Shown in pieces: positions 30,944 to 37,805 of a stretch of 64,000 bases of DNA. The position numbers were made by a program, and so were the translations under genes. Below the pieces are notes generated by a model. The model was not told the origin of the DNA. It did no database searches and saw only the letters and a program-made list of their open reading frames with translations. Origin of the DNA: Pseudoalteromonas holothuriae (lineage in GTDB: Bacteria; Pseudomonadota; Gammaproteobacteria; Enterobacterales; Alteromonadaceae); the NCBI RefSeq assembly GCF_945859825.1, contig NZ_CAMAPC010000002.1, forward strand, positions 434,001-498,000, written 5' to 3'. How positions within the stretch are numbered: the stretch's first letter is position 1; every line of letters begins with the position of its first letter.

Positions 30944-31750
30944 TTACTTTAATGTTGCTTCTTTCATTGCACTGACAAACTGTGTGAGTTCAGCTAACAT
31001 GCGCTCAGGTTCACTAAGGTGTTGCTCAATAATTTTAACCACAGCTGAGCCACTAATTGCACCAGCAGCACCTGAGTCAAGCGCTGCTTTTACATGCTCG
31101 GGTGTTGAAACACCAAAACCAAGTAAAGTTGGCGCAGCGTGATATTCTTTAAGTTTGCTGATTATAGAGTCCGCTGGTATTTGAACGCTGGTGTCAGTCC
31201 CTGTTACGCCTGCGCGTGACAGCAAGTAAGTATATCCTCGACCATAGCTGGCACACTCTCGAAGTGTGTCATCATTGGCGTTAGGCGTGGCAATAAAAAT
31301 AGGCTCAATACCTACACTTTGTGCGGCATGTCGAAACAGTTTTGACTCATGTAGCGGTACATCTGCTACGAGGATTGAATCCACACCCGCTTCTTTTGCT
31401 TGCTGATAAAAGGTATCAATCCCTTTAGCAAAAATAAGATTAGAATAAAGTAATAATCCAATAGGAATATCAGCATTGTATTGGCGTACTTGCTTGATTA
31501 TTTCAAAGCAATCTTGGGTATTAATGTTTTGCTCTAATGCTCTAATGTTTGCAGCTTGGATAACCGGGCCATCGGCAATCGGATCTGAAAATGGAATACC
31601 CAGCTCTAACGCATCAGCGCCACCATCAATCAAGCTTTTTATAATATCAAGGCTAAGTGCTTTATTTGGGTCGCCTATGGTGACAAAAGGAACAAAAGCC
31701 CCTTGGTTTTGTTCAGCCAAGGCATTAAACGTTTGGGCGTAACGGCTCAT
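30944..31750 (-). CDS. trpA: Tryptophan synthase alpha subunit
   Basis: A 268-residue TIM-barrel enzyme cleaving indole-3-glycerol phosphate to indole and glyceraldehyde-3-phosphate, and passing indole to TrpB. Signatures: [11 protein letters not shown], the catalytic Glu/Asp region [22 protein letters not shown] (catalytic Glu and Asp), [13 protein letters not shown] and the phosphate-binding [11 protein letters not shown] and [13 protein letters not shown]. The start codon overlaps the trpB stop by one base (TAATG), so the two are translationally coupled. It is the last gene of the trp operon; no clear T-run hairpin lies downstream. Confidence 0.97.
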
Positions 31751-32934
31751 TACAGTTCTCCTCGCTCATTTAAAACTTGATGTACATGGGCCAAATCTTT
31801 ATCACCACGGCCACTTAGGTTTACTACAATAATTGTTTCTTCGGTTTGTTGTTCTGCATATTTTAGTGCGTACGCTAACGCGTGACTAGACTCAAGCGCT
31901 GGAATGATACCTTCATTTTTTGCTAAAGATTGAAATGCATTAAGCGCCTCGGTATCAGTAATAGCCACGTACTGCGCACGACCTGTTTCGTGTAAATAAG
32001 CATGTTGAGGGCCTACCGCAGGGTAATCTAAGCCAGCGGACACTGAGTAAGACTCTTCAATTTGCCCATCTGAGTTTTGCATAATGTAAGTATAAGCGCC
32101 GTGTAATATACCTTTAGTGCCTTTACACAAGGCAGCACCATGCTCTTGTGTGTCTAAGCCCTTACCAGCGGGCTCTATGCCGATAAGTTTTACACTTGGG
32201 TCATTAATAAAGTCACTAAACATGCCAATCGCATTTGAACCACCACCCACACACGCCATCACTACGTCAGGCAAACGGCCTTCAGTGTTGAGTACTTGCT
32301 GCTTGGCTTCTTCACCAATCATCTTTTGAAACTCTCGAACAACGGTGGGGAAAGGATGAGGGCCTGCCGCAGTACCAAGTAAATAATGCGCTGTTTGGTA
32401 GTTAGCTGACCAATCACGCATTGCTTCATTTACGGCATCTTTCAATGTGCCAGAGCCTGCCGTAACTGGAATAACCTCAGCGCCCATCAAACGCATTCTA
32501 AATACGTTCGGTTGTTGACGCTCTACGTCTTTTGCGCCCATGTAAACACGACACTTTAAGCCAAGCAGTGCGCAGGCTAAAGCGGTTGCTACGCCATGTT
32601 GACCCGCGCCAGTTTCAGCAATCACCTCTTTTTTACCCATACGCTTGGTAAGCAAAGCTTGACCTAATACTTGATTGGTTTTGTGAGCCCCGCCATGGAG
32701 TAAATCTTCGCGTTTAAGATACAGTTTTACTTTTGGGTTTTTGACAAGGTTACGCGTTAAGGTTAAAGGCGTAGGGCGTCCAGCATACTCATTGAGTAAC
32801 TGATGAAATTCCTGTAAAAAGTCAGGATCTTTTTGTGCATTATTAAACTCTTGCTCAAGTTGTTTGAGCGCAGGAACGAGTAATTCAGGGACATACATGC
32901 CACCAAAATCACCAAAATAAGCTGCGTTGTTCAT
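31750..32934 (-). CDS. trpB: Tryptophan synthase beta subunit
   Basis: A 394-residue PLP enzyme condensing indole and serine to tryptophan. The start at 32934 is preferred to one at 33012 because GAGGTGG lies just upstream and the family begins [17 protein letters not shown]; the longer reading only re-reads trpCF in another frame. The PLP lysine is in [17 protein letters not shown], the catalytic [14 protein letters not shown] follows, and the phosphate-binding [12 protein letters not shown] is intact. Length equals the usual TrpB. Confidence 0.97.
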
Positions 32935-32941
32935 TTCCACC

Positions 32942-34309
32942 TCAATAATTTCTAATGTTTGCAAAAGCAGCCTGAAGTTTCTTCTGGCACTTTTTACCGG
33001 GGCTTTGTTCAACCCCTGAATTTAAATCTAATCCCTGCGCGCCAAGCTTGGCGGCAGCAATGACATTATCTGGATTTAGTCCACCAGCAAGCATAAAGTT
33101 GCTGGCTGTTTGTTCGGTTAATAATTGCCAGTCAAATGATTGGCCAGTGCCCCCGAAGCCATTGCTCGTTTTGGTATCGTAAAGATGTTTATCCACCCCT
33201 TTTATAGGCTCAGGTAGCGTTGTGCTAATACCCTGAGCTTTCCAAATTTGGCAGCTAATAGGTAACTGGTTTCTTAGTGCATTGATATAAGCTTCATCTT
33301 CTTGTCCATGCAGTTGTACAGCGCTGAGCTTGAGTAATTGTGCATATTCTGCGACTTGGGCTAATTGTGCGTTAACAAACACCCCTACATACTTAAGTGG
33401 GGCGCTCTCTACAATAGCTTTTGCACAATCTAAATCTACATAACGTTCAGATTTAGGGTAAAAGATCAATCCACCATAAAGTGCACCAGCATCATAAGTC
33501 GCTTGCGCATCTTGGCAACGTGTTAAACCACAAACTTTATTTTCCCCTAAAATCAGCTTACGACAAGCAGCTTCTAAGTTTTGCTCTGCCATTAATGAAC
33601 TGCCTACTAAAAAGCCGTCACACAGCGGTGCTAATCGTTTCACATCTTGATGGGTATAAATGCCGGATTCTGAAATCACCACTTTACCTTTAGGGATCAG
33701 TTTTTTAAGCTGCTCAGTGGTGGCTAAATCAGTTGTTAAGTCTCTTAGATTACGATTATTAATCCCAATAATTTGGGCATTAAGTGTTAGTGCACGTGCG
33801 ACTTCTTGTTCATTACTTACTTCGGTTAACACGGCCATGCTGAGTGATTTTGCAACTTGAGCTAGGCTATGGTATTGCTCATCATCCAGTACAGATAGCA
33901 TGAGTAAAATGGCATCGCCGCCATTTAATCTGGCTAAGTATACTTGGTATTCATCAATGAAAAAGTCTTTACAAATAATTGGTTGTTCAACCTTTTGACG
34001 TACATAACTTAAGTAATCAAAGCTACCTTGAAAATACTTTTCATCAGTTAATACACTGATACAACTGGCATAGCGCTTATAAACACGGGTAATTTCATCA
34101 AGGTCAAAATTCTCTCGTATCAGCCCCTTAGAGGGGGATGCCTTTTTACACTCTAAAATAAACTGTGTACCGGCCTTGGCTAGCGCTGCGTAAAAATCAC
34201 GTTGTGTTGGTTGTACTTTATGTTTGAACGAATCTAATGAAAACTCAGCTTTACGCTTTTCAAGTTCTATACGTTTATCGGCAACGATTTTTTCTAGTAC
34301 ATTAGGCAT
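32942..34309 (-). CDS. trpCF: Bifunctional indole-3-glycerol-phosphate synthase / phosphoribosylanthranilate isomerase
   Basis: A 455-residue fused enzyme as in enterobacteria. The N-terminal IGPS half (about 1-255) has [29 protein letters not shown] and [13 protein letters not shown]. The C-terminal PRAI half (about 256-455) begins [18 protein letters not shown] with the catalytic Cys, and continues with the [11 protein letters not shown] phosphate motif. The two catalyse consecutive steps from PRA to indole-glycerol phosphate. It overlaps trpD by 8 nt and ends 7 nt before trpB. Confidence 0.96.
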
Positions 34310-35309
34310 TGTTACTTACCTCTACAATTTGTGCCAATTTTTCATGGGCGATACCGGAGTTTAATACTTCAAGCACTTGCTCAGTAGCCACTTTAAAGTT
34401 GTCCGCTTTTTGTTCCATTACTAATAATGCAGCAACATTGACAGCAATCGCGGCATTATGTGCCACATGACCTTTGCCTGTTAAAATATCTAGGCTGGCT
34501 TTGGCATTATACTCTGGCGTATCACCGGCAATGTCAGCAAGCGAATAGTTTTCAAGACCAAAGTCTTGCGCATTGAGAGTATATTGTGTCAGTTCGCCTT
34601 GATTAAGCTCAGTGACTTGCGTTGGGCCATGTAAAGCAATTTCGTCAGTGCCCGCACCGTGAACGACCATCGCACGCTCTGTTCCTAGTGTTTTTAATGT
34701 TTGCGCCATTGGAGCACACAGTTGCGGATCGTATACACCTAATAGCTGTGTTTGTGGTGCTGCTGGGTTGGCTAATGGGCCAAGAATATTGAAAATAGTA
34801 CGTGTTTTTAACGTGGTGCGAACCGCCATCGCGTGTTTTGTGCCTTGATGATAGTTTGGGGCAAATAAAAACGTAAAGCCGGTTTGTGCAAGGCATTTGC
34901 TAGCAATGTCACTATCCATATCTAAGTTTATGCCAAGCGTTCTTAATAAATCAGCCGAGCCTGATTTACTTGATACGCTACGGTTACCATGTTTGACTAC
35001 ATTAAGGCCACAGGCAGCTGCAACAATGGCTGCAGTTGTGCTCACGTTAATGGTATTAGCGCCATCCCCACCAGTGCCACAGCTATCGACACAATGCAGA
35101 CCTTGGGTATTAAAAGCTTTTGCATTTTTGCGCATGGCATTTGCAGCGCCTGCTATTTCTTGAGCTGATTCGCCTTTGATTTTTAGCGCGATTAATACAG
35201 CGGTTAATTCTATATCGTTAAGCTGGCCAAGCATAATCTGATTGAATAGGGCGCTGCTTTGTTCATAGTCTAACGATTGTTGTGCGATTAATGTGTTAAT
35301 ACTATCCAT
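34302..35309 (-). CDS. trpD: Anthranilate phosphoribosyltransferase
   Basis: A 335-residue enzyme transferring phosphoribose from PRPP to anthranilate. Conserved PRPP and Mg motifs are visible: DSCGTGGDGANTINVSTTAAIVAA, KHGNRSVSSKSGSADLL, and the FNILGPLANPA and GTDEIAL stretches. It is separate from TrpG, unlike the TrpGD fusion of E. coli. It starts 8 nt after trpG and overlaps the start of trpCF. Confidence 0.96.
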   Translation of the reverse strand: MDSINTLIAQQSLDYEQSSALFNQIMLGQLNDIELTAVLIALKIKGESAQEIAGAANAMRKNAKAFNTQGLHCVDSCGTGGDGANTINVSTTAAIVAAACGLNVVKHGNRSVSSKSGSADLLRTLGINLDMDSDIASKCLAQTGFTFLFAPNYHQGTKHAMAVRTTLKTRTIFNILGPLANPAAPQTQLLGVYDPQLCAPMAQTLKTLGTERAMVVHGAGTDEIALHGPTQVTELNQGELTQYTLNAQDFGLENYSLADIAGDTPEYNAKASLDILTGKGHVAHNAAIAVNVAALLVMEQKADNFKVATEQVLEVLNSGIAHEKLAQIVEVSNNA

Positions 35310-35317
35310 GATAACTC

Positions 35318-35911
35318 CTAACGCGTTAAATAGGCGATGCTTTGCTGCAATAGGCGGGCACCATCTGGGGTTAATATTGATTCAGGGTGAAATTGGTAGC
35401 CGAGCACTTTGTCTTCGCTGTGGTAAATCGCCATGGGTATATCCTGATATTGGGCAATGACTTTCAGCGAGTCAGGCACATGTGTGGCCATCAACGAGTG
35501 GTAGCGAGCGACAGGGAACTGCGCCCCAAGCCCATCAAAAACAGGGTGCGGCTGTGCATCAATGATAGACGCTTTGCCATGAACTGTTTCTCCTGCATGG
35601 CCTATGGTACCGCCATAGCTTTGCGTGAGTGCTTGCTGCCCTAAGCAAATACCTAGTATGGGGAATTTGCCTTTGCACAATGCAACTAACTCTAATAAGC
35701 AGCCTGCTTGTGCAGGGGTTCCCGGACCGGGCGAGAGTACCAAAATAACCGGTTGCTGCTCTTTACTCATTTTCTCAAAAATTCGTTGTGCACTTAAATG
35801 GTTGCGATACACCACCATATCAAGCCCTAAGAGGGTTAACTCATCGACCAAGTTGTAGCTAAAGGAATCAAAATTATCTAAAAAATAAACCTTTGTATTA
35901 CTGTTCATCAC
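35318..35911 (-). CDS. trpG: Anthranilate synthase component II (glutamine amidotransferase)
   Basis: A 197-residue class I glutamine amidotransferase supplying ammonia to TrpE. The N-terminus VYFLDNFDSFSYNLVDEL, oxyanion strand SPGPGTPAQAG, catalytic Cys89 in LGICLGQQAL, and the His-Glu pair in GYQFHPESILT form a complete active site. The gene overlaps trpE by 14 nt, consistent with coupled translation of complex partners. Two adjacent ATG codons (35911 and 35908) could start it. Confidence 0.95.
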   Translation of the reverse strand: MMNSNTKVYFLDNFDSFSYNLVDELTLLGLDMVVYRNHLSAQRIFEKMSKEQQPVILVLSPGPGTPAQAGCLLELVALCKGKFPILGICLGQQALTQSYGGTIGHAGETVHGKASIIDAQPHPVFDGLGAQFPVARYHSLMATHVPDSLKVIAQYQDIPMAIYHSEDKVLGYQFHPESILTPDGARLLQQSIAYLTR

Positions 35912-37478
35912 TCACTCCTTGATAGGTAGACTGCACGGCTTTAATAACAGCTTGTGCTTTTGCGCGTGTTTCATCCGCTTCAGCTTGAGGGATAGAGTCA
36001 TAAACCACCCCCGCACCTGCTTGTACATATGCGGTGGCATTTTTTACAAATGCTGAGCGAATTACGATACATGAGTCCATCGCGCCATCACCCGTTAGAT
36101 AGCCGACGGCACCGCCGTAGCTACCTCTGCGTTTTTTCTCTACGTGACGAACTAATTGAGCGGCTTTGACTTTAGGGGCACCCACTAAAGTGCCCATATT
36201 CATACAAGCTTGGTATGCGTGCAGTGCATCAAGGTCGGGTTTTAGCTGACCTACGACACGAGACACCAAGTGCATTACTTGAGAGTAGCGGTCTACCTTT
36301 AATAATTCTTTGGCATGGCGCGTACCTGCAACACTAATGCGTGCGATATCATTACGAGCAAGGTCTACCAACATTAAATGCTCCGCGCGCTCCTTTTGAT
36401 CATTACGCAGTTCTAACTCGATACGGCTGTCTAAATCAGGGTTAATGCGTCCGTCAACAAATTTACCGCGTGCTCGTGTGCCTGCAATGGGATAAATCTC
36501 GACTTGATTACTGTTAGTATCGTATTTTAAAGCCGACTCTGGCGAGGCTCCAAACAGCACAAAGTCTTGGTCTTGCATGTAAAACATGTAAGGGCTTGGG
36601 TTTTGTTGTTTTAGCTGTTGATAGGCTGCAAGTGGTTGAGCACAAGGCAATGAAAATGTTCGAGATGGTACTACTTGAAAGATATCACCATCAATAATAT
36701 TTTCTTTCAATTGTGCAACTTGTTCACAAAACGTTGCATCGTCGATATTCACGTGTACATTAGCTTTGCCTGCGTTAGGCCCGGCAAAGTAAGGGGTAAG
36801 TTCGTCACAACGGGCATTAAGTTGTTCAAGCTGTTTGCCAACTTCAAAGCAGTTTGCATGCACGTCTGGACCATTAAATACGTTGCCGATTAGCTCTGTG
36901 GTTTGCGCTTGGTGATCAATCAATACCAAAGTCTCGGCTAAGTAAAATACGTAATCTGGGCAGGTATTTTCACCATTAGGTACATCGGGTAATTGCTCAA
37001 AATTGGCCACCATGTCATAGGCAAATACACCACCCAAGAATACCGATAGTGGCGTGTCTGAGTTACGTTTAATACTGTTAATGCAGGTCCGAAGTGCGCT
37101 AAAGGCATTGTCGGCTTTGAGTTTGCTAACTTCATCTAAATCATCATCAATACCTTGATAAGTGAGTGTCAGCGTATCTGCATGTAACTCACTTAGGCAA
37201 TTGGCTACTTTGTCTTGCAAAAAAGCAAGTAATTGTTGACCATTGTTTGAAAGTGCTTTTACCGTAACCTGTTTGCCAACACATTCAATACGCAGTGCTG
37301 CATCAGCGAGAATAATGCTTTTGACATTATCTTTTGAATCAATTTCTGCTGACTCTAACAGCAGTGAATTATTTTTCCCCAGTGATGCATATAAAGACAG
37401 CGGGCTACTTATATAGTCGCGCCTTTGTCGTATGCTGGTCACTTCACCTGGAGTTGTTGTAATGTGACTAAATATCAA
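35898..37478 (-). CDS. trpE: Anthranilate synthase component I
   Basis: A 526-residue chorismate-using enzyme making anthranilate with ammonia from TrpG. The start is a TTG at 37478, with GGGGAA about eight bases upstream; the resulting N-terminus has the expected spacing to the Trp-feedback motif LLLESAEIDSKDN. The catalytic half includes FQVVPSRTFSLPC, PSPYMFYMQD, IAGTRARGK, ELRNDQKERAEHLMLVDLARND and GSYGGAVGYLTGDG. The LLLESA motif implies feedback inhibition by tryptophan. Expression is governed by two attenuators located directly upstream. The nearby ATG at 37486 opens only a six-codon frame and is not the start. Confidence 0.95.
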   Translation of the reverse strand: MIFSHITTTPGEVTSIRQRRDYISSPLSLYASLGKNNSLLLESAEIDSKDNVKSIILADAALRIECVGKQVTVKALSNNGQQLLAFLQDKVANCLSELHADTLTLTYQGIDDDLDEVSKLKADNAFSALRTCINSIKRNSDTPLSVFLGGVFAYDMVANFEQLPDVPNGENTCPDYVFYLAETLVLIDHQAQTTELIGNVFNGPDVHANCFEVGKQLEQLNARCDELTPYFAGPNAGKANVHVNIDDATFCEQVAQLKENIIDGDIFQVVPSRTFSLPCAQPLAAYQQLKQQNPSPYMFYMQDQDFVLFGASPESALKYDTNSNQVEIYPIAGTRARGKFVDGRINPDLDSRIELELRNDQKERAEHLMLVDLARNDIARISVAGTRHAKELLKVDRYSQVMHLVSRVVGQLKPDLDALHAYQACMNMGTLVGAPKVKAAQLVRHVEKKRRGSYGGAVGYLTGDGAMDSCIVIRSAFVKNATAYVQAGAGVVYDSIPQAEADETRAKAQAVIKAVQSTYQGVSDEQ

Positions 37479-37492
37479 ACCTCATTCCCCTA

Positions 37493-37533
37493 AAAATAAA
37501 AAACCCCACTAACTGTTTAGGCTTAGCGGGGTT
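37493..37533 (-). terminator. trp attenuator 2: terminator hairpin
   Basis: On the minus strand AACCCCGCTAA (37533-37523) pairs with TTAGTGGGGTT (37512-37502), one G-U pair, and is followed by TTTTTTATTTTT. Its 5' arm shares CCCGCTAAGCC (37530-37520) with an 11-bp perfect antiterminator partner GGCTTAGCGGG (37568-37558). The two structures are mutually exclusive, as in classical trp attenuation. Confidence 0.9.
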
Positions 37534-37561
37534 GTTAACTTGATACAACAATACCGTCCCG

Positions 37562-37609
37562 CTAAGCCAGGCACCACCACCAACCAATTGTAGTTATATT
37601 GTCGAACAT
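37562..37609 (-). CDS. trpL: trp leader peptide 2 (three consecutive Trp)
   Basis: A 15-residue leader, MFDNITTIGWWWCLA, preceded by AGGA (37619-37616) at good spacing. The three UGG codons (37582-37574) lie just upstream of the antiterminator 5' arm, and the stop codon lies inside that arm. Ribosome stalling at the Trp codons would free the arm to pair with CCCGCTAAGCC and prevent the terminator at 37493-37533. This is the leader proximal to trpE. Confidence 0.9.
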   Translation of the reverse strand: MFDNITTIGWWWCLA

Positions 37610-37630
37610 TGTTTTTCCTAAAATTTAGAT

Positions 37631-37659
37631 ATAAAAAAACCCGCTTATATAGCGGGTTT
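37631..37659 (-). terminator. trp attenuator 1: terminator hairpin
   Basis: Minus-strand AAACCCGCT (37659-37651), loop ATATA, AGCGGGTTT (37645-37637) with a T-run to 37633. The competing antiterminator pairs GCGGGT and TTTCGTT (37691-37678) with AACGAAA and ACCCGC (37670-37652), using the terminator 5' arm. Confidence 0.9.
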
Positions 37660-37694
37660 AAACTTTCGTTAAGACACAACGAAACACCCGCAAA

Positions 37695-37742
37695 TTACGA
37701 GCGCCACCACCAGATTTTGTTTTTATTGTTTGTTGATGTCAT
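37695..37742 (-). CDS. trpL: trp leader peptide 1 (three consecutive Trp)
   Basis: A 15-residue leader, MTSTNNKNKIWWWRS, about 25 nt after the predicted transcription start. The three UGG codons are at 37712-37704 and the stop codon ends four bases before the antiterminator arm. No strong Shine-Dalgarno is visible. Together with its hairpin at 37631-37659 it forms a complete attenuator upstream of a second complete attenuator. Apart from WWW and the 15-codon length the two peptides differ. Confidence 0.85.
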   Translation of the reverse strand: MTSTNNKNKIWWWRS

Positions 37743-37770
37743 GATTCTATACGTTTAGATGTCTTTAGTG

Positions 37771-37805
37771 GGTACAGTAAACCGCACTGTTTGATATTCT
37801 GTCAA
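37771..37805 (-). promoter_or_regulatory. Candidate trp operon promoter
   Basis: On the minus strand a perfect TTGACA (37805-37800) is followed after 18 bp by TTTACT (37781-37776). The predicted start lies about 25 nt upstream of leader 1. No convincing TrpR operator (GTACTAGTT-AACTAGTAC) overlaps it. Confidence 0.6.

Follow-up and report, generated by a model that had tools for sequence, protein, structure and literature searches.

The trp operon of Pseudoalteromonas holothuriae is, with good probability, governed by two complete ribosome-mediated transcription attenuators placed in series behind one promoter. The leader lies in the 64,000-nucleotide stretch of DNA that was analysed (hereafter the window), where the minus-strand order upstream of trpE was found to be a promoter followed by two leader ORFs, each with its own antiterminator and intrinsic terminator. 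The putative promoter (37776..37805, minus strand) is a consensus match comprising TTGACA (37805-37800), 18 nt and TTTACT (37781-37776), and short RNAs of ~138 and 273 nt are predicted when the start is taken to lie ~7 nt below TTTACT. The first structural gene, trpE (anthranilate synthase component I; 35898..37478, minus strand), was assigned by an NCBIfam match of 786 bits (cut-off 471), starts with TTG, and has its Shine-Dalgarno sequence (pairing -6.4) directly after terminator 2 (37478-37502 in the window). The remaining operon (trpG, trpD, trpC(F), trpB and trpA; 30944..35911, minus strand) was likewise identified by NCBIfam matches. The TrpE of the window is closest to those of Pseudoalteromonas, with 92% to P. 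caenipelagi.

Anatomy of the two leader units

Leader ORF 1 (37695..37742, minus strand) encodes MTSTNNKNKIWWWRS in 15 codons plus a stop, and no recognisable Shine-Dalgarno sequence precedes it (anti-Shine-Dalgarno pairing +0.5 kcal/mol). Antiterminator 1 (37652..37691, minus strand), obtained by both duplex search and codon-by-codon folding, pairs GCGGGU (37691-37686) with ACCCGC (37657-37652), and intrinsic terminator 1 (37631..37659, minus strand; -12.8 kcal/mol) consists of a hairpin at 37659-37637 and a T-run to ~37631. Leader ORF 2 (37562..37609, minus strand), also of 15 codons plus a stop, encodes MFDNITTIGWWWCLA and has the Shine-Dalgarno-like UUUUAGGA upstream, with an anti-Shine-Dalgarno pairing of -4.2 kcal/mol in the window (E. 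coli trpL, -4.5). Antiterminator 2 (37520..37568, minus strand), found by duplex search, joins 37568-37558 to 37530-37520 in a duplex of 11 perfect pairs, in which the UAG stop codon of ORF 2 takes part, and intrinsic terminator 2 (37493..37533, minus strand; -15.3 kcal/mol) comprises a hairpin at 37533-37502 and a T-run to ~37493, situated between ORF 2 and trpE. At the sequence level, a short ORF with regulatory Trp codons is therefore found twice before the trp genes, with one intrinsic terminator per ORF ahead of the first gene. Since terminator 1 ends ~20 nt before ORF 2 in the window, a ribosome would load onto ORF 2 only after read-through. A first-pass annotation of the window had described two 15-codon leader ORFs with three consecutive Trp codons each, and an antiterminator and T-run terminator belonging to each unit; the ORFs were confirmed in the sequence, the coordinates of all these elements hold on re-examination, and the paired structures are supported, as predictions, by the duplex search and the folding.

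As naked RNA, unit 2 did not exceed its shuffles in stability (z -0.68); the value for unit 1 was z -4.10. Matches of 38.9 and 24.6 bits to the Rfam model Trp_leader (RF00513) in the window fell short of its 41-bit cut-off, and in a scan of the genome unit 2 ranked seventh among 53 matches, none of which was above the cut-off. The cut-off was also reached by none of 20 loci scored (18 from Pseudoalteromonas, one from Algicola and one single-unit locus from Rheinheimera). Because of this z value and the sub-threshold, seventh-ranked Rfam score, the case for unit 2 rests on its ORF, its anatomy and its conservation, and not on energy or Rfam.

Conservation across Pseudoalteromonas

Leaders were compared in a sample of 42, made up of the window and 41 Pseudoalteromonas loci. 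Both ORF-plus-terminator units were present in 41/42, window counted, so that conservation in related strains, which the first-pass annotation had named as a check on its proposal, was found for both units. WWW occurs in ORF 1 of all 41 two-unit leaders and in ORF 2 of 39 of them, which puts three consecutive UGG codons in the second ORF of 39/42 leaders; the triplet has been lost from the second ORF in L066 (WW) and L067 (WGW). The one exception among the 42, L074, has a single ORF and then two terminators, ~210 to 50 bases before trpE, and looks like a leader with a decayed second unit from which ORF 2 was lost. When every one of the 42 leaders was dinucleotide-shuffled 50 times (2,100 shuffles in all), one unit arose in 2 and two units in 0, and these shuffles together with the conservation rule out chance ORFs. 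A pattern search over 108 genomes of the genus returned the unit 1 pattern in 104 and the unit 2 pattern in 87, all 87 lying within the 104 (the two lists were compared by genome, with distances not tabulated), and reversed patterns, used as a control over the same 108 genomes, gave 0 matches. Two close-set matches of the unit 1 pattern were seen in four further genomes (G322, G339, G011 and G340), and G313 (C1:1414335-1416174) carries the whole tandem leader in two copies separated by 1,653 bases, where trpE may be duplicated as well.

The leader peptides are variable except for the Trp codons and one or two residues after them. Nascent-peptide sensing was dropped for Pseudoalteromonas because of this variability; the conserved peptide of an arrest attenuator is not seen in this genus and is found in the WFIWWLLPIYAG ORF of other genera described below.

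The same comparison bears on whether unit 1 alone senses Trp, with unit 2 serving trpE translation by reinitiation from ORF 2 or acting as a leakage-lowering terminator without Trp sensing, which we consider improbable. Such roles would suit the better Shine-Dalgarno sequence at ORF 2, the two second ORFs without three consecutive UGG codons (L066, L067) and the recurrence, in other lineages, of terminator-less second Trp ORFs ahead of trpE, and leader-gene reinitiation has been proposed to raise translation (PMC4833913). Against them stand the near-universal retention of the ORF 2 triplet and the terminator that follows ORF 2 in 41/42 leaders, together with an antiterminator candidate, and that lies ahead of trpE.

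A single conserved putative promoter precedes both units. The pattern TTGAC[AT]-N17/18-TTTACT was found upstream of unit 1 in 41/42 Pseudoalteromonas leaders, with a variable spacer, in line with the TTGACA promoter originally placed ahead of the two units. Between the units, the best promoter-like sites (per-locus scores) change in sequence and position from one clade to another, and they score below the upstream promoter except in L060-L063, with L075 lacking an upstream value in this scoring. P. lipolytica and its relatives (L060-L063) have, immediately past terminator 1, a TTTATA-17-TATAAT match that outscores the main promoter (12.8 versus 11.3) and could allow unit 1 to be bypassed there. 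It is this match that would favour two units acting in parallel on transcripts of two promoters, unit 2 serving the one in between; given the variable and lower-scoring in-between matches elsewhere and the retention of the upstream promoter, such an arrangement is very improbable. Two attenuators in series upstream of trpE, as first proposed, are supported as the best reading by the one conserved upstream promoter and the variability of the sites in between.

Predicted RNA switch

With plentiful Trp-tRNA, the ribosome would clear the three UGG codons, reach the stop codon and cover the left arm of the antiterminator, upon which the terminator would form; with scarce Trp-tRNA, it would stall on UGG, the antiterminator would form and RNA polymerase would continue. 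The polymerase would face the test at unit 1 and again at unit 2, whose ORF would be loaded only past terminator 1, and because both must be passed, read-through probabilities would multiply and sensitivities would add.

For 11 of the 42 leaders (22 units), and for E. coli trpL as control, we stepped a ribosome along each ORF codon by codon and folded the RNA that it left uncovered. When the ribosome was placed at the first Trp codon, with the right arm unmade, 4-12 terminator left-arm bases were paired in 22/22 units, at pairing energies of -9.7 to -24.0 kcal/mol (E. coli, 5 of 8 bases at -15.6). Once it was moved to the stop codon, no more than 2 left-arm bases were paired in 19/22 units, and 4-6 stayed paired in L068 unit 1, L075 unit 2 and L077 unit 2. 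The expected arrangement, with one arm common to antiterminator and terminator and the antiterminator masked by a ribosome at the stop codon, is clear in these 19/22 units, and for the 11 leaders the folding reproduces, as a prediction, the trp switch in unit 1 and unit 2 alike. The full-length minimum-energy fold with the ribosome at the first Trp codon still contained the terminator in 18/22 units and in E. coli, from which it follows that, under this model, the choice between the structures must be kinetic.

Terminator stems were also compared by alignment. Seven stem pairs of terminator 1 are invariant over 29 distinct hairpins, which gives no evidence either way on pairing. In terminator 2, also over 29 distinct hairpins, three stem positions changed on both sides (C-G/A-T/G-C; A-T/C-G/G-C; A-T/C-G), with some mismatches, in a register set by hand on CCCG/[CT]GGG, with no shuffle control, in which lengthening of the C-run on both sides scores as paired changes; hand anchoring was used instead of MAFFT, which put the C-run one base out. 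A 1:2 pause hairpin with at least 5 paired positions was predicted in 25/42 first units (L074 included) and in 33/41 second units, again with no shuffle control.

Differences between the two units

The Shine-Dalgarno pairing of ORF 1 has a median of -0.9 kcal/mol over 41 leaders, 0/41 being at -5 or below (L071 and L078 reach -4.2), whereas that of ORF 2 has a median of -3.9 kcal/mol with 10/41 at -5 or below. Over 41 leaders, the first UGG lies a median of 14 nt from the antiterminator in unit 2 and 20 nt in unit 1, values that reflect the program's choice of duplex and include one wrong row (L076 unit 1, where the terminator of unit 2 was taken). In the window, naked RNA favours the antiterminator in unit 2 and the terminator in unit 1, and when the ribosome stalls at the third UGG, antiterminator 2 becomes weaker (from -13.2 to -11.6) and antiterminator 1 does not. 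These asymmetries may translate into different thresholds or default states.

Whether unit 2 has a Trp threshold of its own, instead of repeating unit 1, can be judged from the same data, and we regard it as possible but doubtful. An antiterminator 2 that overlaps the ORF 2 stop codon and starts nearer the Trp codons, its weakening by third-UGG stalling, the opposite preferences of the naked RNAs and the unequal Shine-Dalgarno strengths all point that way; on the other hand, the distances vary by lineage besides depending on duplex choice, and the energy effect is small and lineage-specific. A difference in threshold is compatible with two attenuators in series, of which it would be a refinement.

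TrpR and the role of a second unit

Textbook trp attenuation involves one sensor per operon and is usually taught together with the repressor TrpR. A TrpR match (PF01371) above the Pfam cut-off was found in 0/25 genomes of the genus (the window genome and 24 relatives) and in 0/147 genomes of the family. Sub-threshold PF01371 matches occurred in 4/25 and 8/147 of these genomes, respectively, and were not counted as TrpR since they covered only part of the profile. A TrpR operator at the promoter was likewise rejected, the promoter spacer being unconserved by eye across leaders and no TrpR match lying above the cut-off, in agreement with the first-pass annotation, which saw no obvious operator there. 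That annotation had also suggested that attenuation may carry most of the control, which fits the absence of a TrpR match above cut-off; given this absence, attenuation may carry the Trp-specific control in these genomes.

A basal read-through of 10-15% is quoted for the E. coli trp attenuator in an extract of Elf and Ehrenberg (PMC1183508), from which two units at 10-15% each would, by analogy, give a read-through of about 1-2% and replace part of the role that TrpR has in E. coli. The tandem layout would in this way probably provide tight control without a repressor protein. Loss of TrpR does not require a second unit, as 109/146 genomes of the TrpR-less family have a single attenuator (29 have none by the same rule). 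The his attenuator of the same genome is also single, with MFNILTAVHHHHHSTG and a terminator of -18.7 kcal/mol (L330, G000 C11, near 133194); the His-codon pattern used to find it matched five loci in the genome, one of them a leader.

Relation to known attenuators

The Pseudoalteromonas leaders share with E. coli trpL (RF00513) a short ORF with a run of UGG codons, an antiterminator and a T-run terminator before trpE, as well as the same folding behaviour, and rnm (RNase AM) is the divergent neighbour of the operon in both organisms. They differ in having two units instead of one, in scoring below the Rfam cut-off and in the absence of TrpR above cut-off. Within the same genome, the his attenuator has the classical ribosome-mediated layout with a single unit. 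Tandem T-boxes place repeated sensing units in one leader, and this repetition of sensors is shared by the tandem riboswitches and by the trp leaders described here; in riboswitches and T-boxes, however, the RNA itself senses the metabolite or tRNA, with no translating ribosome. Proteobacterial attenuators are reportedly the subject of Vitreschak et al. 2004.

Repetition within one leader takes several forms in the sources consulted. An excerpt of PMC3641672 describes two terminator sites in the metE leader of B. clausii, which has tandem riboswitches, and one of PMC3766115 gives two riboswitch copies in 82% of glycine-regulated operons. The tandem attenuators of Salmonella mgtCBR, in the former excerpt, likewise place two leader ORFs one after the other in a single mRNA leader, but these respond to two signals, ATP and proline, and the stem-loops are unlike intrinsic terminators (PMC3641672), whereas Trp codons and intrinsic terminators are found in both units of Pseudoalteromonas. 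The rimP-leader of some Gammaproteobacteria has two tandem terminators, the upstream one with a potential antiterminator (PMC2965389); the extract of that paper names no amino-acid leader peptide, unlike Pseudoalteromonas, where each terminator follows a Trp-codon ORF. The literature searched, with most subscription papers outside its scope, contained no description of tandem trp attenuators, Salmonella mgtCBR being the nearest case. Two complete units for the same signal, in series and conserved across a genus, are thus, as far as sequence can tell, a real and new form of putative ribosome-mediated trp attenuation. They offer a natural, genus-wide series circuit in which the predicted multiplication of read-through and the predicted steeper response are directly measurable.

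Origin and distribution of second Trp ORFs

In the T1lg lineage (L075, L076) the two units are near copies of each other, the 20 bases after the Trp codons being identical in L075. The similarity of unit 1 to unit 2, measured against shuffles, reached z 13.0 in L075 and 11.0 in L076, compared with a median of 1.9 over 41 loci. In a quick TrpE tree (midpoint root, long-branch warnings) this lineage branches first within the genus. Of the two origins first considered, an old duplication or separate emergence, these near-copy units favour duplication; the sequences support a tandem that arose by duplication or, alternatively, a later gene conversion in the T1lg lineage.

Two terminator-bearing Trp ORFs were found in 8/146 genomes of the family and in 4/52 genera, namely in 5/5 Pseudoalteromonas and in one genome each of genera g38, g45 and g61; the Algicola locus L083 also has two units. 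The 85 genomes from other families of the order yielded no convincing second terminator-bearing unit. Several candidates were rejected: the second unit of G218 proved to be two overlapping frames sharing one terminator, and what passed for the first unit in G230 and G262 is a fragment from upstream of the real leader. G113 was left out, as a contig end had shifted the extraction.

Second short Trp ORFs between the first attenuator and trpE, mostly without a terminator, recur in other TrpR-less lineages. Across the order, among leaders with a recognised first attenuator, a second Trp ORF was seen in 0/24 leaders with TrpR versus 54/149 without it (three of them false: G230, G262 and G102, the last with an ORF inside trpE), in a count by genome that is inflated by relatedness. 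In shuffles of the same stretch, a second Trp ORF arose in ~1% (34/3,480). The one within-family comparison made, in f11, shows the same contrast: G203 has TrpR and no second ORF, and 4/5 genomes without TrpR have one; in the fifth TrpR-less genome (G273) a WRWW ORF was seen that the counting rule excludes. WRW-type second Trp ORFs with no terminator were observed in families f11, f12 and f25 and in genera g61 and g66.

A different type of second ORF encodes the peptide WF[ILM]WWL[LQ]P[IL]YAG (WFIWWLLPIYAG), ending at a stop codon before trpE, and was found in 26 genomes from 11 genera (26/30 of those sampled there), with L205 (G047), L224 (G078) and L215 (G132) as example loci. Its codons vary and its residues hardly do; as the search pattern fixed W, WW, P and YAG, this conservation is partly by selection, and the looser pattern WF.WW returned 27 genomes, of which 26 end in P.YAG. 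No intrinsic terminator was found for this ORF, and a Pfam and NCBIfam scan of three examples of the peptide gave no family match. Judged by its residues, WFIWWLLPIYAG is possibly a new arrest peptide or nascent-chain sensor, and it provides a concrete candidate for ribosome arrest.

A tentative scenario, which we hold to be rather less probable than otherwise, is that, after loss of TrpR, several lineages independently gained a second Trp sensor, with leader sensors stacked in the place of the repressor. Pseudoalteromonas would have acquired it by duplicating the whole attenuator, other lineages would have evolved a terminator-less ORF, and in eleven genera that ORF would have become a TnaC-like peptide sensor acting on translation or Rho. 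The association with TrpR makes it testable whether RNA leader sensors were stacked in place of a lost repressor.

In Rheinheimera and relatives (L084, L085, L087, L104, L106 and L109), the second ORF reads ISWRWWQFS... and its end lies 15-68 bases ahead of the trpE match, right at the Shine-Dalgarno sequence of trpE in the case of L087 and L106. The placement of this ORF suggests translational coupling or attenuation.
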